From assembly GCA_032358165.1 (NCBI GenBank), contig JAALGY010000030.1, positions 1,426,001 through 1,490,000 of the forward strand: a stretch of DNA of 64,000 nucleotides, read 5' to 3'. Positions 51,934 to 63,701 of this stretch are shown here, one piece after another. Both the position numbers and the translations under genes were made by a program. Under the pieces are notes generated by a model. The model had not been told where the DNA came from and searched no databases. It saw only the letters and a list, made by a program, of their open reading frames with translations. This DNA is from Diplosphaera chodatii (Eukaryota > Chlorophyta > Trebouxiophyceae > Prasiolales > Stichococcaceae). Numbering within the stretch: position 1 is the stretch's first letter; each line of letters starts with the position of its first letter.

Positions 51934-54900
51934 ATGCCGATGACAGACAGATTCTCGTACTCAAACGCACCGGTAAGCATCATGGTGCAGCATGCGCTGC
52001 GCTGGTGTGCAGCGTGCCCATGCTTTGCATCGTGTAGATGTGTGTGCAGCTGCTTGTGCTTGTCACGTTTGTCCCGTGGAGGCGACTGACGTCCGGAACA
52101 TGTCGCATCGACTCCCTAACTAGCAGCGTGCATCATATTGACGCTCTGCTGGCGTTTCTGCAGGTGAAGAAGGTGAAGAATGTGCAGTTTGGCGTCTTCG
52201 ACCCCGACCTGCTGGTGAGTGCTGCAGCCGGGAGCGCACAGCGATGCAGTCGGCCCATAAAGTCGTCTGCCGTTACGCATAAGCCTGCAATGACAGCTGC
52301 CAGTCCTCAGGCCACTCATGCGGATGCCCATCGCTGCAGCGGCGGTACTCGGTGGTCAAGGTCGAGAGCTCGGACATGTACGAGCGTGGGCGGCCGAAAG
52401 CCGGTGGCCTCAACGACTTGGCGCTGGGCACCATGGACCGCCAGGAGCGGTGCACCACCGACTCTGCCAATGCGCAGGTGCCACTACAGACGGCGTGTGC
52501 AGAGTCCATGCATGAGCACGTTGCCTGTATGTCTGGCACTACACACTCTGCATGACGGTGGCTGTCAGGCAGGGCGTTGACAATGTGCACGCGCCTCCCG
52601 GCAGGACTGCCCGGGGTACTTTGGCCACATCGAGCTGGCCAAGCCGATGTTCCACGTGGGCTTCATCCGCACGGTGCTGCGCGTGCTGCGATGCGTCAGC
52701 TTCCACAACTCCAAGCTGCTGCTGGAGCCGGTGTGTAATACCCGTTCGCTGTCGCCTGTTTGATGTCATCTGCCAAGCTTGTAGTCCACTTGGTTTCTGC
52801 CATTGGTTCATCAGTAAGGGTCTGGCAGGGAAAGTTGAGCACATTTGCATGGTGCTTGCAGACTGACGTCAAATACAAGTTGGCAATGCGGGCAAAGAAG
52901 CCGGAGCAGCGGCTGCGCACCTTCCTGGGGTTCTGCCAGCCGAAGAAGGAGTGCCCGTACACCAATGCGCCGCAGCCCATGTACCGCATGGACGGCATGC
53001 GCATCATGATGGAGTTCCCAAAGCCCAAGGCAGACGACGACCTGCCAGCTGAGCAGGCCGATCGCAAGCAGGTGCAGAACATTGCCATTGCTCCCCAATG
53101 CGTGTGGTAGTCATGTTGTGGGGGCCGCCGGCCAGTGCCGCTGGTGCAGCCACATCCAGCAGGCTGCCTGCTGACTGTATATCACCCTGGGTCGTTCAGG
53201 AGCTCACAGCGGAGCATGCCCACGAGATCCTGAAGCGCATCAGCGATGAGGACTGCCGGGCGCTGGGCTTCAACCCCAAGTATGCGCGGCCCGACTGGAT
53301 GGTGCTCACCGCCTTCCCGGTGCCGCCGCCCGCCGTGCGCCCGTCTGTCATGATGGACGGCGTCAACAGGTGACGGCCCTGCTTGCAGTGCGGCTGTAGC
53401 CCAAGTGAGTGAGTGAATACAGATGCTGTCCAGTGGCAAGCTCGCAGTCTCTAGGATGCGTTGAGTACCACCCTGCATCCACAGCAAGCAAAGTGTCCTG
53501 ACCATTTTGGGTTGTGGTGCAGGTCGGAGGACGATCTGACGCACAAGCTGTCGGAGATCGTCAAGGCCAACATCCGGCTGGGCCGCATGGAGCAGAGCGG
53601 CGCGCCGCAGCACATCATCCAGGAGTTTGCGCAGCTGCTGCAGTTCCACATCACCACGTACATTGACAACACAGTGCCGGGGCAGCCGGTCGCGCAGCAG
53701 CGGTCGGGGCGCCCCATCAAGTCCATCTCCCAGCGCCTGAAGGTGGGTGGCGCTGTGGACCTCCCAGTGCACGCAGGCCCTTCTGCCAGCGTCCACTGCC
53801 ATCATGGCCAGGCGAAGCCATATACCCTCACTAACCGGCCCCAAACCCTCAGTGAATGGTCGATGCCATGCCGTGCGCAGGGCAAGGAGGGGCGGGTGCG
53901 GGGGAACCTGATGGGCAAGCGCGTGGACTTCTCCGCGCGCACCGTGATCAGCGGCGACCCCAACATCGCGCTGGACGAGCTGGGGGTGCCGTGGTCCATC
54001 GCCCTGAACCTGACGTACCCGGAGACCGTCACCGTCCACAACCGCGCCAAGTGCGCTACTGATGTGCTTTGCTCCTTGCTAGTGCCTGAGTTGCAGAGCG
54101 TCATTGGATAAAGGTTCATCATTCTGTGTCTGCTTTGTTGCAGCTCTGAACCTTGTGAAGCAGACATTGCCATTCCCTTGCAGGCTGCAGCAGCTGGTGG
54201 AGAATGGGCCACACCCTCCGGCTGGCGAGACTGGCGCCAAGTACATCATCCGAGATGTGAGTGGCAAACAGATGGCATGTTTTGTGTAGGGGTCACTTCT
54301 CTCGAAGGGTAATTGAAAGCTGAAGCAACACTTCTGTGCCCACAGGATGGCCACCGGCTGGATCTGCGCTTCTTGAAGCGTGATGCCGATCGGCACCTCG
54401 AGATTGGCTATGTAGTCGAGCGGCATCTTCAGAATGGCGATGTGGTGCTGTTCAACCGGCAGCCCAGCCTGCATAAGATGTCCATGATGGTGGGTCCTCT
54501 GACTTGATGATCTGTGCAAGCTGACTTCGAACAATCCAGGCCTGTGCAAGCTGACTTCGAACAACCCAGGCCTCAGCTTGTCCATCACTGCACAGCTATT
54601 GGCAATACCTTGTGCACTATACAAAGATTATCGGACTGCATTCATCACCAGCATGATGCTATGCCGCTGCAGGGGCATCGAGTGCGAATCCTGCCTTATT
54701 CCACGTTTCGGCTGAACCTCAGCGTTACATCGCCCTACAATGCCGACTTTGATGGCGATGAGATGAACATGCATGTACCCCAAACTCCAGAGACTCGTTC
54801 AGAGACCGAGAACATCATGATGGTGCCCCGCAACATCGTGTCGGCGCAGGCACGTTGGGAGTGTGCTCCCTGATGATGCATTGACCATCCCTGGTGTGTT

Positions 54901-57900
54901 GAAGGTGGTTTGGGTGCTGCTGCAATATATGCACCCCAACAGAACCCTCAGAACCATTACCTGGTGACTGCAGGCCAACAAACCGGTGATCGGCATCGTG
55001 CAAGACACGCTGGCAGCCATGCGGCTGATGACAAAGCGGGACACATTCATCGAGGCAGACGTAATGATGAACATCCTGATGTGGCTGGAGGACTGGGACG
55101 GCCGTGTGCCCATGCCGGCGGTCTTGAAGCCGCGGCCACTGTGGACTGGCAAGCAGGTGGGTGCAGATGGCTGATGACCTGTTGTACGAGCTGCCTGCAT
55201 GCAATGGCACACGCAGTGCTTGTGACGGTTGATATGAATGATGGTCTTGGTCACAGCATAGCCATCATTCGTGGACACTGCAGATCGTCAACCTATTCCT
55301 GCCGCGGGTGAACTGCCGGCGCTTCGCCTCATGGTACAAGGACGGCGAGCCAGCAGACATGTCGCCAACAGACTCCCAGGTGACCCGATACTCTGCAGTG
55401 AGTTTCTGCATCATGCACAACCAAGATATCCCATAGGGTATGACATATCAACCAGCCTGCATGTCAGTGCAACTTGGGGCTGTGCCACATGCAGGTGCTC
55501 ATCCAGGACGGCTACCTGCTGGAGGGCACGCTGTGCAAGAAGACGCTGGGCGCATCTGGCGGCAGCCTGGTGCATGTCATCTTCATGGAGGCCGGCCCCG
55601 AGGCAGCGCGCGCCTTCCTGAGCCAGTGCCAGTACACCGCCAACTACTGGATGCTGCAGCATGGCTTCTCCATCGGCATCGGTGACACCGTGGCCGACGG
55701 CGCCACCATGCTGGTCATCAATCAGACCATCAACCGGGTGAGCTGTGCTGGTGCAAAGTGCGCGCCCTCGGCACCAGCCCAGAATGCAGTGAGATACCCA
55801 GGAAAGTGGTCGATCCAGCATGCTCATGTGCGTGCTTGACCGATGTGCAGGCAAAGGAGGAGGTGAAGAAGCTGATCGAGAAGGCGCAGAGCAATGAGCT
55901 GGAGGCGCAGCCCGGGCGCACCATCATGGAGTCATTTGAGAACCAGGTGCACTAGCAGAACCAATGCCAGAGAGTAACAGTTGAGCTGATGAAGCACCAG
56001 CAGTGAATTGATGAAATTCCTGAGCCTGTGCGCACCGACACACTGTTGCGGTGTAGGGCCATCACCCTGAGCAGGTACCACCCCTGCTTGGCTGCAGGTC
56101 AATCAGGTGCTGAACAAGGCACGTGATGATGCTGGGCGGTATGCCCAGGCCTCGCTGCGCGACACCAACAACGTTGTGCGCATGGTCACGGCGGGCTCCA
56201 AGGTGCGTGTCGGCCTGCAGCAGACCCAGATGTGTTCCTAGGCATGCTCGTGCAAAGGTGTTGGAGCAGGAGGTGCCTGCACTTCCAGTGTCCTTCACAG
56301 GAACGACAGTTGACACACGTAGCTGAAAGCCATCTTGTGTCACGTGCAGGGTTCCTTCATCAACATCTCGCAGATGATTGCGTGCGTGGGGCAGCAGAAT
56401 GTGGAGGGCAAGCGCATTCCTTTCGGCTTCTCTGACCGTACGCTGCCCCACTTCACCAAGGTGCGTGCAAGACTGATGCTGCTTCCCGTGTTCTAGCTGA
56501 CCTTGGCATCTGATGTGCTTGCAGCAGGTACTGGACTGACATCCCTTGCCTCTCAACAGGATGACTATGGTCCCGAATCACGGGGCTTCGTGGAGAACTC
56601 CTACCTGCGCGGGCTGACGCCCCAGGAGTTCTTCTTCCACGCCATGGGCGGCCGTGAGGGGCTGATCGACACGGCCGTGAAGACATCCAGCACCGGCTAC
56701 ATCCAGCGCCGCCTGGTCAAGGCTATGGAGGACCTCACCATCAAGTGCGTGTGCATACGCTGCCCTGATGCATTCTCAGTGCAGGCTGGTGTCCTCTCAA
56801 GAAGCCCTGCTTGCAGCACCCAGCACATAACAGTGTTGTCAAGCGGTGTTTGCTTACTCTGGCCAGGTATGATGGCACGGTGCGTAATGCGGTGGGCGAC
56901 GTCATCCAGTTTCTGTACGGCGAGGATGGCATGGACGGCGCCGCCATTGAGAGCCAGAAGATCGATGCGCTGAAGGCCACCGAGGTACACGAATGGCATG
57001 CATCGGGGCATTGGCGCTGGCTGTGTGTGCACACCTGCAGTACATTTTGTCATGTTGGTGTGCAGGATCACAACCGTCATGGCGATGGTTTCTATCATAA
57101 CCTGTGAAAACCCTACACTACACAGGCACGCATGAGGGACCAGTTCCACATCTCGCTGGCCACCATGGATGCGGTGCCCAACTGGCTCAAGGCGGACGAC
57201 GCGGAGCGGCTGCGCTCCAGCATCGAGGCGCACCGCATACTGGACGGCGAGTATCAGGTGGGCTTCTGCGCATCCCATCGCTGCTGCCGCTGCACTGTGC
57301 GTTTCTTTGGCACGTTCGTGGATGCCGCCTGTGCATTGAGCCACATCCTCAACAACAGTTTCAGTGCTAACCTGTCCTGCACTGTTGGGAACAGATGTGA
57401 CTGATGATAAATGAACATACTTGTCACTTGCTGCAGCAAATACTGGACGATCACACCATCCTGCGCTCAGAGGTGCTGCCGACTGGGGATAATGGCGTCA
57501 ACTTGCCCGTCAACCTGAAGCGGTTGATCTGGAATGCACAGCAGCTGTTCAAGATCAAGCCCAATCGCAAGGCGCCCTCAGGTGCCCTTGACTTGATGTC
57601 TTGCCCTCTGGTTTGCAGCTGCTGACCCTCTGTTGGTCCGAGTCCAATGGCGTGCGCTGAGGCGGCATGTGTGTGCAGGCCTTGATCCGCTGGAGGTGGT
57701 GGAGAAGGTGCAGGAGCTGTGCCTCAAGCTGGTGGTTGTGAAGGTGGGCGGGGACATCTGGGTCGATGTTGCTTCAAGTTGTTATGTAGCATGAAGCTTA
57801 TGGCCACATATGGTTAGCAACTACTTTGTAGCAACTTGGGCCACCAACCTCTGCCTGCCCCCCGGCAGGGTGAGGACTCGCTGTCGACCGAGGCGCGCCG

Positions 57901-60900
57901 CAATGCAACCTTCCTGTTCCACTCACACCTGCGCGCGACGCTGGCTGCCAAGCGCGTGCTTTCCGAGTATCGTCTCACACAGGAGGCGTTCGCCTGGCTG
58001 GTTGGCGAGATTGAGACACGGTTCCAGACGGTGTGCGCAGCCAGTTCCTGCAGCGTGTGAAGCAACATGGACATCTGGCTGTCATGTTCATGCCTTTCAA
58101 GTCAGTTCGTGTGGCATCCCGTTGCCAAGTGCTCAGCTCCTGGAGGGGTCTGGACGATGGTGTTGCTGTTGGGTGCAGGCGGTTGCATTCCCAGGGGAGA
58201 TGATTGGCACCGTAGCGGCACAGTCTATCGGCGAGCCAACAACTCAGATGACGCTCAACACGTTCCACTTTGCTGGCGTGTCTGCCAAGAATGTGACGCT
58301 GGGCGTGCCCCGGCTGACTGAGATCATGAACATTGCCAAGAACATCAAGACGCCCAGTCTCAGCGTGCACCTGGTGCGCAACCTCCTTCCACCTGCATGT
58401 GACCCCTGTCGTCAACATGTGGGCTGTGGTGCTGATGTGCCTGTCTGCCAGTGAGTTGTGCAAGTAAACTGTCGACCGCAGGGTTGCAGTGCCGATGCCT
58501 GCTTCACCTGTTGCACCCCCTCTGAAGGTGGGCGATGCGGCGCGGGATCGTGAGGCGGCCAAAAACGTGCAGTGCAGCCTAGAGTACACCACGCTGAAGC
58601 GCGTCACCGAGGCCACCGAGATCTACTACGACCCCATCCCCGATGTGAGAACTTCGTCTGCTTTACAAGCCCATGCGCTATCTGCAGCTTGACGCAGATG
58701 CTGTGCAACATACTGTCCTCCGGGCGCCACTTTATTGGACACAGCCAACGGTGGTGTTCCCTGCTGCAGGACACGTACATCGAGGAGGACAAGGAGCTGG
58801 TGCAGAGCTACTTCGAGCTGGGGGAGGACGAGAAGACGCGCCGCATGTCGCCCTGGCTGCTCCGCATCGAGCTCAACCGGTGTGCTCCCCCCGGCAGCTT
58901 GCGCCTCCCGTGACACGGCTGACTCTGCCTACCACCCATCCCTCCTGCTTGCTTCGAATGCTCGGCAAGCTTTGTGCTTGTGGCGCCTGGGGCGCGTGGT
59001 CTATGTTTTGCAGCATTCAAGATTCTGATGTGTCACATGGTCACGCAGCGAGATGATGGTGGACAAGAAGCTGTCGATGTCAGACATCGCGGAGCGCATC
59101 GACAGCGAGTTCACCGACGAGCTGCACTGCATCTTCTCCGATGACAACGCTGAGAAGCTCATCCTGCGGGTGCGCCACCAGCTGTTGCGGTGTATGCGCC
59201 TTCACCCAGTCCACCAATGTCCGGGCCCACTTCAGGCGCCTTGTGCTGGTTGGCCGCCTGCACACTGGCTCGTGCATGCTCAACCACTGCTTGCCATCTC
59301 AACACTTGCTGCACATCGGTTGGTCGGACGTCATCAACAGACCTCATATGCCCCTGACGCTGACACCCCTTTCGTCTTGCAGCTGCGCATCCTGACGGAG
59401 GAGCCGGGCAAGGATGAGATGGGCGCTGCGCCGGAGGACCAGTTTGACGACGTCTTCCTGCGCCGCATCGAGGGCTCCATGCTGTCGCAGGTCGCACTGC
59501 AGGTGCGCCTGCTGTGCAATTTTTCTGGTTCTGTCATGCTGCATATGGTCGGGTCGGTATGCTGTGAATTCGTTGCTGGCGTGCTTCACTGGTCTGCCGC
59601 TGGGTACCTGGCGACACAGATGGCTTCAATATGCAGGGCATGGAGGGCATCCGCAAGGTCTTCATCCGTGAGGCCAAGCGGACCACAGTGGAGCCAGGCG
59701 GCGGCGCATACAAGACAGAGAACGAGTGGATGCTGGACACTGAGGGTGTGCAGCAGCAGGAACAGCGCTAATGATGCCCTGCTGCTGCTGTTTCAGCCAG
59801 GGCGCACCACATACCAACGAATAAGAGTAGTGATCAGAGCGGTGCCCGATGCTGCGACGCAGGCGTGGCGCTGCTGGCGGTCATGGCACATCCGGAGGTG
59901 GACCCCACGCGCACGGTGTCCAACCACCTCATCGAGATCATTGACGTGCTGGGCATCGAGGCCGCGCGCAACGCCCTGATGAAGGTGCCGTGGCCCTGCT
60001 GACTAGGCTTGGTAGCACTTTACTGTCGCGGCAACGTCTCGGCTGTGACGTGCAGGCCGAAGACATCGTCTGCAATGTAATACATGCAAATTCCTCTACA
60101 TTCCCACCACTTAGTTCTGGCATCTGCAGGAGATGCGCGGTGTCATCGAGTTTGACGGCAGCTATGTCAACTACCGGCACCTGGCCATCCTGTGCGAGGT
60201 GGGCCTGCAGCCTTGGATCACGCTGAGCTGGACAATGTATGTGCATACAATTTTGAATGTCTACGATGCCGTGTGAACTCATTGCACAGGTCATGACCTG
60301 CCGGGGCCACTTCATGGCGATCACGCGCCACGGCATCAACCGGACGGACCATGGCCCCCTGCAGCAGTGCTCTTTCGAGGAGACTGTCGACATCCTCTTT
60401 AGGTATGCCCAGCCTGTAGCCACACTCACATTTGCGTGTCCTCTCTCTCCCCGTAGCTCCATCTGGCAAGGAGGCGACTGTGTTAAACCGCCCCTGTGTG
60501 GTGCTGCGCCACTGCAGGGCGGCAGCGTTTGCAGAGAACGATGCGATGCAGAGCGTAAGTGACAACATCATGCTGGGGCAGCTGGCGCCGGTGGGCACGG
60601 GCGCCTTCGACCTGCTACTGGACGACGTCGCGCTCAATGACGCCATTGACGTGTCGCTTATGGAGGACGCCCTTGCCGCCGGCATGACGCCTGGTGCGCC
60701 TCCTGCTGGCCCCGCCCAAGCAGCTTGCCCGTCGCGGCTTCGCTGTTGCAACACTCTAGGGCATGATGCCTTGTGGATACCCTTTTTGATGGCATGTTCC
60801 TGCCATCAAAATACTCCTTTTCGCTTTGCTGAGCCTGCCCGCCATCTGCAGCACGAATGACGCCGGGCATGACGCCGTCGATGCGGATGTCACCGTCCGC

Positions 60901-63701
60901 CCTGGCGTCGCCAATTGGCGGCATGTCGCCGTTCTCAGCAGACGTCACTTTCACGCCCATGGTGCGAGCCGTGCCTGTTTTCAGTTAGGTCTTGTCATGC
61001 CCCTAGCTTGCTAGCCAAAAAGTCATGCTGCCAATGGGCACAGTGGATGCCCATGCTGTCATGTCCTGCACAGGCGGCAATGTCGCCCGGCCAGAGCCCC
61101 GGCTTTGCCCCCTTCAGCCCATTCAACCCGCAGAGCCCCTTCAATCCCACCAGCCCGGTATGTCCTCACTGTTCATGAGGTGTTACCACTTCGTCTGGTA
61201 CATCAGCAAGTGTTCCCATGCACATATCTGGGACGGGCACGGGTGCACTGCTGGCCTCCCAGCATCCATCCAGAAGCAGGGTCACTTAGCCAGCTGACTC
61301 GTGTCCGTGTGCTTTCCTGTTGCAGGGGTACAGCCCAACGTCGCCAGGGTGAGCAACATTGACTGTGTTTGCTGCTAGTGATGTGCTCTGAAGTGTGGTG
61401 TCTGTCAAGAGTCGCCCCATCTGGAAGCGTTGATGTTCCTGACGGTTCTCGATTTGCTTTGCAGATACTCGTGAGTTCATGTTCCGATTCCCTGCCAGTC
61501 TCTGACTCTTGGCGCCACATTCCATTGTGTGGCGCATGCCTGCAATTTCATTCCCTGAATCCTTGTGCACATGCTGACCAGCCTTGTCGTGCGGTGCTGG
61601 CATCGGTGGCATTGGTGACGCATGCAGCATCAGTGCACTCTGCCATGTGCTGCTCTGCAGCCCAACGTCGCCCGGTTACAGCCCGACGTCGCCAGCGTAC
61701 AGTCCGACATCGCCAGCGTACAGTCCGACATCGCCGGCGTACAGCCCGACATCGCCGGCATACAGTCCAACATCGCCAGCGTACAGGTGGCTGATGCCGG
61801 CATGCCATGCAGGGTTGCTTCGACTTTGGTGCACTGCTGTTTTCAAACCTTTGCACATTTCAACATGCCACGTTTATGCTTGAATTGCAGTCCGACGTCA
61901 CCTGCGTACAGCCCAACTTCCCCGGCGTACAGCCCGACATCGCCGGCGTACAGCCCGACTTCGCCAGCCTACAGGTACGTCTCGTGCGCTTGCTTGCTCT
62001 TGCGGCTGAGGCTGCTGCCAATGTGCCACTCTGACCTGACGACTGGCGACACTGTTCCCAATGCAGCCCGACGTCGCCGGCGTACAGTCCAACATCTCCA
62101 GCTTACAGCCCAACGTCACCAGCATACAGGTACAGAATACCAGCATGCTGTTCGATTGCTCGCCTTCGTGCCAGAGACTCTGAAGGCAAGTGCAGTTCTG
62201 GATGTGACGACCTGCGCTCGTGCCCCACTGCAGCCCCACGTCACCGGCATACAGTCCAACGTCTCCAGCATACAGCCCGACGTCGCCGGCGTACAGGTGA
62301 TCGACATCAGCATGCCATGGTACCCTTGGCACACAAGTCTCTCGCTTGAGTGCAACGGTCAGACTGAACCTCGTGCTCATGTTTACACTGCAGTCCCACC
62401 TCTCCAGCATACAGTCCCACATCGCCAGCGTACAGGTACTGCAGTTGCATTGTCATTGTGCGTTTCATGCTATTTGGGATTGATGACTGAACCAGAGCAA
62501 TTTCTGAAACTTGATTGTGTTTATTTGCAGTCCCACCAGCCCGGCATACAGGTGAGGGACCATCTGGTAGTCCGCAATCGGATCCGGTAGAAAACCTGGA
62601 CAGCCTTGCTGGGATACGTGCTGTGTCTCATGGCTTGGGCCACTGATGCGTGCGGCTGCACCAGTCGGGCGTGTTGCAGTGCCAACCCATGTCATGTTTG
62701 GAGCACTGCAGTCCGGCCAATGGAGGGGACGACAAAAAGGGCAGCAAAGTGGGGACATCCTACTCGCCGTCCAGCCCGGCATGGTCGCCCACCTCCCCCA
62801 GTGAGCCTATGTGCTGCCCAACACGCTGCTGCAAGCTTCACTCGGATGTGGGTCGCAACTCTGTTGCAGGAAAGCATTTCAATTCATGAAGCTTTGATGC
62901 TGTGCACTGCAGCATACTCGCCAACAGGCGCAGCGGGTGTGTCTGGCAGCGCCTCGCCAGTGTACAGCCCGACCTCACCCACGTGGGTTCTTTCGTACTA
63001 TCTATCATGTGATGGCAAGCGGCATTGCCACTGACTGTGATGTTTTGTGCACTTGTTGTGAGTCGTCAGCACCCGATGCATGGTCGCAGCAGAGGCAAGT
63101 CATTACAACCCTTGCGCTGTGCGTGCAGGTATTCACCTTCAGGCGGCTCCAAGAGTCCTGCCTACTCGTGAGTATGGCTTTCCTTTTGTGCACCCACCGA
63201 CCTGCCTTCATGCCCGTAATGTGCACCCTTGGCTCCTCCCAATTTACTCGGATGTCATCTGGCGCCTCTGACACCTCCAAGCCATTCATATGCAGGCCCA
63301 CAAGTCCGCAGTACAGTCCGACTTCGCCGCAGTACTCGCCTGCCTCGCCGCAGTACAGGTCGAGTTCCATGTACTGACTGCCTCACAAATGCTATGTCTC
63401 TGCATTTGCCCCAATCAGTGGCAGCAGGGTTGGGTCCACCGCTCGCTTGCCAGCATGTGTGCATATGCCAATGCCTGTTGACGTGTCAGTTTTGCTGCGG
63501 CATCTATTGGCTGGGCAAGATAGCTGAATGTCATCATGTGGTGGTTGCAACAGCCCAGCGTCGCCGGAAGCTGGGCCTCCTTCGGCAACGGCGTCCACCT
63601 CAGCGACGTCGTCAGCGCAGCCGGGCAGCCTGCAGGCCAACGGCGCGGCTGCCAATGGCGTGGCGAATGGCGGCGAGGCATTCAGCCCATCGCACAGTTG
63701 A
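51934..63701 (+). CDS. RPB1: RNA polymerase II largest subunit RPB1, with YSPTSPA/G C-terminal repeat domain
   Basis: The catalytic subunit of Pol II. Forty-eight exons join in phase from 51934 ([13 protein letters not shown], exon 51934-51972) to the stop at 63701; total 5,442 nt, about 1,813 residues. Blocks in order: [17 protein letters not shown]; clamp core [74 protein letters not shown] at about 54736 (three catalytic Asp for magnesium); bridge helix [20 protein letters not shown]; trigger-loop region [20 protein letters not shown] then [14 protein letters not shown]; and [21 protein letters not shown] linker rich in MTP/MSP precedes about 20 tandem heptads and a diverged distal CTD ending [10 protein letters not shown]. 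Clamp zinc ligands are partly lost: residues 71, 81, 108, 111 and the site equivalent to yeast C167 are Asp, Tyr, Ser, Asn and Thr. One intron (54850-54973) uses a GC donor. Stops between exons are intronic, so this is not a pseudogene. Confidence 0.97.
54511..54570. repeat. Two-copy 30-bp tandem repeat inside an RPB1 intron
   Basis: The unit containing CTGTGCAAGCTGACTTCGAA occurs at 54511-54540 and 54541-54570, back to back, differing at only two positions (T/C at base 1 and base 25 of the unit). It lies in the intron between the exons ending at 54489 and starting at 54673. It looks like a recent local duplication. Confidence 0.9.
61329..63358 (+). repeat. RPB1 CTD heptad-coding repeats, split by introns every 1-6 heptads
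   Basis: Exons 61661-61786, 61891-61974, 62067-62129, 62234-62296, 62394-62435 and 62531-62551 are 126, 84, 63, 63, 42 and 21 nt: 6, 4, 3, 3, 2 and 1 heptads. Each begins inside a Ser codon after a CAG acceptor and ends TACAG|GT. With the heptad of the 61326 exon, about 20 tandem YSPTSPA or YSPTSPG units result. Distal units are diverged: [29 protein letters not shown] twice, YSPASPQ and YSPASPE. Position 7 is almost always Ala or Gly in the proximal part. Confidence 0.93.
61465..61470 (+). other. 6-nt microexon in the RPB1 CTD
   Basis: TTGCAG|ATACTC|GTGAGT. The upstream exon ends TCGCCAGG (phase 2) and the downstream exon begins CCCAACG. Including the six bases gives GGA TAC TCC CCA, restoring the Tyr-Ser needed to keep the heptad register. 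Skipping it would stay in frame but delete exactly Tyr-Ser. Confidence 0.75.

Follow-up and report, generated by a model that had tools for sequence, protein, structure and literature searches.

Early in chlorophyte evolution, the largest subunit of RNA polymerase II (RPB1) would have lost the two zinc centres of the clamp, a reading to which we assign a probability of roughly 0.8. In the RPB1 of Diplosphaera chodatii, canonical ligands are replaced at both sites, and among the matches listed site 2 is missing from almost all chlorophyte RPB1s in which it can be read. From these sequences we infer the absence of zinc, a clamp held by packing and a single origin of the loss.

RPB1 gene of Diplosphaera chodatii

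The window (the whole stretch of 64,000 nucleotides analysed here) contains an RPB1 gene that was rebuilt exon by exon. Its core consists of 33 exons up to position 60693 and encodes 1470 residues, with the exons of the C-terminal domain (CTD) further downstream; a probable TGA stop codon, read in a single open frame with the CTD unspliced, lies at 63699-63701. Splice sites are GT-AG throughout the 33-exon core with the exception of one GC-AG intron (54850-54973, after exon 11), which is likewise GC-AG in the second copy of the gene described below. The 1470-residue core shows 100% coverage against RPB1 proteins, with up to 85% identity among the matches listed, and the window RPB1 nests among green-plant RPB1s in trees made of RPB1 sequences. 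The features used here are the following:

51934..63701, + strand: RPB1 gene (Pol II largest subunit), exon-by-exon rebuild
52340..52477, + strand: exon 3, with C68 (52451-52453) and D71 (52460-52462; canonical Cys)
52605..52730, + strand: exon 4, site 1 part, with C78 (52608-52610) and Y81 (52617-52619; canonical His)
52605..52730, + strand: exon 4, site 2 part, with C106 (52692-52694), S108 (52698-52700) and N111 (52707-52709), the last two being canonical Cys positions
52862..53071, + strand: exon 5, with C143 (52934-52936), C149 (52952-52954) and the shortened C148-C167 loop
52961-52963, + strand: T152 in exon 5, in the place of the canonical GGCG ligand
54673..54849, + strand: exon 11, with the catalytic NADFDGD motif
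61329..63353, + strand: CTD region, 24 heptad-like units, mostly YSPTSPA, in intron-separated pieces

The gene has both the catalytic motif, in exon 11, and heptad-like CTD units. The CTD units represent a motif count over three frames rather than a spliced model, and six of the 24 start with C, apparently at exon starts.

Altered zinc sites of the clamp

Site 1 of the window RPB1 reads C68/D71/C78/Y81 in place of the canonical Cys-Cys-Cys-His, and site 2 reads S108/N111/C149/Thr in place of four Cys. The residues named in the sequence-only reading (C68, D71, C78, Y81, H84, C106, S108, N111, C143 and C149) are all recovered exactly in the spliced translation. That reading was mistaken in describing the alignment to canonical RPB1 as free of gaps, since the loop between C148 and C167 is mostly deleted. 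Counted from the residue equivalent to C148 up to 'PQP', this loop has 8 residues in the window RPB1 and 11-74 residues in 208 of the 209 canonical rows among the matches listed; its shortness indicates that the fourth ligand of site 2 went with the deletion of the loop and the presence of Thr. A different route to a short site-2 loop is seen in P0193, a canonical MMETSP protein from outside the green clade, in which the loop also has 8 residues and the Cys pair is retained within a CWSC motif.

The three exons that encode these residues (exons 3, 4 and 5), at the coordinates proposed by the sequence-only reading, are flanked by AG acceptors and GT donors both in the window and in the second copy on contig C21. 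A rescue of the ligands by alternative splicing would be unlikely, because S108, N111 and the loop sit inside contiguous exon sequence and because D71 is located 15 bases ahead of an exon end that both copies share.

Two copies of the gene under purifying selection

When the D. chodatii assembly, which comprises 85.6 Mb in 55 contigs, was searched with PF04997, a second RPB1 gene was located on contig C21. The 27 window exons placed on C21 align without gaps and are flanked by AG and by GT or GC (the exon with the start codon having no acceptor). These 27 exons correspond to the 1234 codons on which the comparison of the copies is based, exons 28-33 and the CTD lying beyond the C21 stretch compared. 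The two copies differ by five amino acids and 214 synonymous changes (dS 0.297, dN 0.0018, dN/dS 0.006), without any stop codon, and the altered ligand codons are identical in both. RPB1 is under strong purifying selection. This selection and the sharing of the altered clamp across a whole clade (see below) uphold the earlier claim that both canonical zinc sites are lost in a functional RPB1.

A second, canonical RPB1 copy had been named as an observation that could overturn this claim. Such a copy is indeed present, yet its clamp shows the identical ligand losses, and a six-frame search of the genome, considering the best candidates only, found no canonical RPB1 paralogue. Each RNA polymerase large-subunit gene examined is present twice (C24/C21, C27/C26, C19/C25, C13/C22 and C29/C30), which, with RPB1 copies at a dS of about 0.3, suggests a duplicated or hybrid genome.

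Distribution of the altered clamp among RPB1 proteins

Three protein searches provided the best 120 rows each of 7975, 122 and 154 passing; distant eukaryotes are thinly sampled among the matches listed. Together with the window RPB1, the 281 others of sufficient length for the alignment make up 282 rows. Among these matches, all eight ligands (CCCH CCCC) are found in 210 of the 282 rows, including P0097, and site 2 is lost in 53 rows with both sites readable. Nineteen rows were left out of the counts: P0030, P0130, P0153, P0170 and P0179, which are clade members with an incomplete N-terminus, seven giant-virus-like rows, P0196, P0198, P0173 and four polar-bear isoforms with a gap. The 53 rows were first chosen by their non-canonical state, and the tree of all 282 rows then added only P0097 to their clade. 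Thus, 53 of the 54 chlorophyte-clade rows in which both sites can be read, among the matches listed, are devoid of site 2, the exception being P0097. This recurrence and the agreement of the two genomic copies put the change far beyond chance. The loss reported for 'this lineage' by the sequence-only reading is real, but its scope was drawn far too narrowly.

The rows with a lost site 2 include, by name, Elliptochloris, Parachlorella, Coccomyxa, Micractinium, Trebouxia, Symbiochloris, Apatococcus, Prototheca, Chlamydomonas eustigma, Chlamydomonas schloesseri, Volvox, Dunaliella, Haematococcus, Polytomella, Scenedesmus and Tetradesmus; Tetraselmis, Picochlorum and Chromochloris also belong to the group (names being our reading of the record tags). 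The first-branching rows (P0089, P0092, P0121 and their kin) are tentatively taken for mamiellophytes. Both sites are kept in Chara, Marchantia and Arabidopsis, as well as in Mesostigma and Chlorokybus (the latter two by genome tags), and the sampled streptophytes keep them in general, a few damaged or gapped records aside. In two grass rows, P0173 and P0198, site 2 is altered or damaged, and these rows resemble faulty gene models or defective copies. Another row, P0196 (1455 residues), has CDCY at site 1 and a lost site 2; this fast-evolving protein, in which no heptad CTD was seen and whose tree position is unreliable, looks, from its sequence, like the RPB1 of a chlorarachniophyte nucleomorph.

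At site 2, no ligand Cys is left in 33 of the 53 rows, one is left in 19 and two in Elliptochloris. The first ligand is replaced by Ser (37 rows), Gly (14) or Ala (2); the second position holds Asn (18), Thr (18), Ser (15), Cys (1) or Gly (1); the third holds Asp (25), Cys (20), a gap (5) or Asn (3); and the fourth holds Thr (35), Ser (8), Asp (5) or Gly (5). The loop has 8 residues in 48 rows and 7 in the other five. Judging from these residues, site 2 is gone as a Cys4 site in the chlorophyte clamp.

Site 1 is more varied. Its first Cys (C68) is kept in 53/53 rows and Asp71 is present in 51/53, the pair formed by the second and fourth ligands being D+Y in 49 rows, D+H in two (P0026 and P0027), C+H in two and C+Y in none. 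The third ligand is Cys in 37 rows and is replaced in 16 by Ser (8), Thr (7) or Asn (1); C78 is retained in D. chodatii. In the 16 of 53 rows (among the matches listed) that have lost C78, site 1 is probably metal-free; in the other rows, a modified site formed by Cys, Asp, Cys and H84 is conceivable. Two trebouxiophyte-like rows, Apatococcus (P0011) and P0211, display a full CCCH site 1 despite a lost site 2, a pattern that would imply reversals or a retention of site 1.

Phylogenetic position of the rows lacking site 2

Trees were built from the sequence behind the clamp, so that the trait itself does not shape them. They are quick trees without bootstraps, and those of 90 and 37 rows use hand-picked canonical rows. 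The chlorophyte clade comprises 59 rows in the 90-row tree (SH-aLRT 99) and 25 rows in the 37-row tree obtained with a mixture model (support 98). In the 282-row tree, P0097 alone joins the 58 rows that lack site 2, five of which are incomplete, in one clade (support 0.992).

P0097 has the complete set of eight ligands and a loop of 25 residues, yet it lies inside the chlorophyte clade in every tree, and a grouping of the site-2-less rows that excludes it is rejected (AU p 0.0044 and 0.00083). This position means either that site 2 was lost more than once or that P0097 regained its clamp. By parsimony on the 37-row tree, site 2 requires two changes if P0097 is included and one if it is left out; site 1, for which the states intact and not intact were distinguished, requires four changes and is thus labile.

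Predicted structure of the clamp

The first 338 residues of P0004, which is the closest protein among the matches listed and has the same ligand pattern, were modelled with AlphaFold2 from a 17-row alignment. The models are weak, with a mean pLDDT of 62.0 for P0004 and 61.7 for an Arabidopsis control run with the same rows. In P0004, the block-mean pLDDT reaches 79-90 over residues 101-170 (clamp head, site 2), compared with 75-85 for the clamp head of the control. The helices at 94-104, 121-127 and 132-143 and the strands at 158-162 and 165-169 have counterparts in the control, whose loop 150-168, missing in the alga, has a pLDDT under 50. The best PDB matches are RPB1 chains of Pol II, with a TM of about 0.6 over the query and an rmsd of 9-13 A. 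The predicted models agree with a clamp-head fold retained after excision of the loop. For site 1 the prediction is poor in the alga as well as in the control (block means of about 40-55; residues 68-86 and 73-86, respectively, score under 50), and the models are uninformative on this site and cannot show the absence of metal.

Zinc sites of other polymerase subunits in the same genome

Genes for other subunits were identified by motif, without a tree. The putative largest subunit of Pol III (RPC1; C27 and C26) carries CTTCGQTLQDCTGHFG, CICKTC and CPHCG, and the putative largest subunit of Pol I (RPA1; C19 and C25) carries CATCGLRYQHCPGHFG, CTCLHC and CANC, with intact ligands in both copies of each gene. 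The RPB2-like gene retains CEKC and CLNC, and the RPA2-like gene also retains its site. The intact sites of Pol I and Pol III make the clamp loss specific to the largest subunit of Pol II among the genes examined. In the RPC2-like gene (second-largest subunit of Pol III), the C-terminal zinc motif reads CEHC...CPST in both copies (C29:492113-492214 and C30:470726-470833), one of the four expected Cys ligands being Thr. The RPB9 family (PF02150) had no match in a six-frame search of the genome that ignored introns, a result that does not imply absence of the gene.

Weighing of alternative explanations

An origin of the ligand changes in sequencing error, in mis-splicing or in the decay of a gene copy is practically negligible as an explanation. 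The loss of site 2 is common to both genomic copies and to 52 other rows, the ligand codons that might have been misread are the same in the two copies, and the 1234 codons compared have the dN/dS and the lack of stops given above; on the C21 residues and this dN/dS, we rule out sequencing error, a pseudogene and a rescue by a canonical second copy. Several independent losses within Chlorophyta, in the first-branching group and in the rest, with P0097 bearing the ancestral clamp, form an unlikely but credible alternative that draws on the nesting of P0097 in every tree built and on the extra change that it adds to site 2. However, the loop of 7-8 residues common to the losing lines, often resembling TG.PQP.Y, looks like the product of a single event, and P0097, with its longish branch and similar identity to streptophytes and chlorophytes, could have had its N-terminus replaced. 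Because the losing lines share this one short loop, a single loss of site 2 would be the preferred history, although it does not account for P0097, and several losses are conceivable.

A clamp in which only site 2 is metal-free, site 1 still binding zinc or another metal through changed ligands such as C68, D71, C78 and H84, seems unlikely. Aspartate is a possible zinc ligand, rows reading CDCH exist (P0026 and P0027), and among the 53 site-2-less rows C68, Asp71 and H84 are present in 53, 51 and 52, respectively. Against this, the substitution of C78 by Ser, Thr or Asn in 16 of the 53 rows would leave at most C68, D71 and H84, and H84 is equally conserved in canonical RPB1 (205/209), where it is not known to be a zinc ligand in the structures. 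More generally, H84, C106 and C143 are conserved in 205, 197 and 190 of the 209 canonical rows and in 52, 49 and 52 of the 53 zinc-less rows among the matches listed; with conservation about equal in zinc-binding and zinc-less RPB1s, the compensation by these side chains that had been suggested finds no support. The earlier interpretation is supported as far as the loss of canonical ligands in both sites is concerned and unsupported for the substitute side chains, the absence of zinc itself being read from sequence. That the lineage shed zinc sites to reduce its need for zinc appears very improbable: the damaged motif in both copies of the putative RPC2 gene would fit such a saving, but the putative largest subunits of Pol I and Pol III, RPB2 and RPA2 retain their sites in the same genome. 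With these intact sites in other polymerase subunits, we judged a general saving of zinc unlikely.

A scenario for the loss of the zinc centres

In the reading that we prefer, an early loss of both zinc centres in chlorophytes, the CxxC pair of site 2 (clamp head, Zn6 in the numbering of PMC8020760) would have changed mostly to Ser or Gly followed by Asn, Thr or Ser, and most of the loop bearing the fourth Cys would have been removed, directly joining a beta hairpin that may need no metal. Site 1 (clamp core, Zn8) would have passed from Cys-Cys-Cys-His to Cys-Asp-Cys-Tyr, probably with Asp first and Tyr second. This order is suggested by the occurrence of D+Y, D+H and C+H but never C+Y, and it also implies reversals in Apatococcus and P0211. 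In several lines, the third Cys of site 1 would later have disappeared as well. Ordinary packing of side chains, together with contacts within Pol II, presumably keeps the clamp fold in place.

Comparison with other systems

Canonical RPB1s (yeast, human and Arabidopsis) and the algal protein share the same core, catalytic motif, CTD heptads and predicted clamp-head helices and hairpin; they differ in the Cys-Asp-Cys-Tyr site 1 of the alga and in its missing site-2 ligands and loop. Site 2 is lost alike in nearly all other chlorophyte RPB1s among the matches listed, most of which also have the D+Y pair, C78 being kept in D. chodatii. In zinc-ribbon ribosomal proteins, zinc-free paralogues keep the fold without the Cys ligands, and the swap of paralogues saves zinc. 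The fold would be kept in the same way in the algal clamp, but in this case no canonical RPB1 paralogue was found among the best candidates of the six-frame search.

An Asp/Tyr site 1 is also present in seven giant-virus-like RPB1s (P0199-P0202, P0266, P0272 and P0281), which read Cys-Asp-Thr/Cys-Tyr and, unlike the alga, keep a complete CCCC site 2. They form a deep, separate branch of the tree, and three of the seven have intein-type Pfam domains; we infer their viral nature. No relative of these proteins turned up when viral contigs were scanned twice. The RPB1 of African swine fever virus is reported to have two zinc motifs (PMC10881513). We tentatively suggest, at somewhat less than even odds, that Asp/Tyr could be a defined and recurrent metal-free replacement of site 1, which would have arisen in early algae and either separately or by gene exchange in the giant-virus-like RPB1s. 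With a single origin at the algal base, Asp/Tyr would have reversed to Cys/His at least twice (Apatococcus and P0211).

Mutants of the plant Pol IV subunit NRPD1 in the same clamp domain are reported to nearly phenocopy null mutants (PMC6753494). Changes in this clamp region thus nearly abolish function in Pol IV, whereas they are the normal state in the algae.

Significance

According to PMC8020760, the clamp zinc ligands are invariant across Pols I-IV of eukaryotes, and their substitution in yeast Pol II is temperature-sensitive or lethal, for which that paper cites Donaldson and Friesen (2000). As far as the sampled sequences go, the chlorophyte clamp loss is clade-wide and contradicts this stated invariant; in the open-licence literature, we found no report of green algae whose RPB1 clamp has lost its zinc ligands. 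A large algal clade living without these ligands would show that they are replaceable. If the Asp/Tyr reading is true, zinc-free, half-zinc and zinc-bound clamp designs would exist as a natural series within one algal group. Species in intermediate states would allow one to ask whether the role of zinc lies in stability, in assembly or in the binding of clamp-associated factors. The question is testable in a tractable group, since the altered clamp is found in Chlamydomonas schloesseri, C. eustigma and Volvox. Finally, this clamp may be useful as a character that marks chlorophytes and possibly nucleomorphs of green-algal origin as well.
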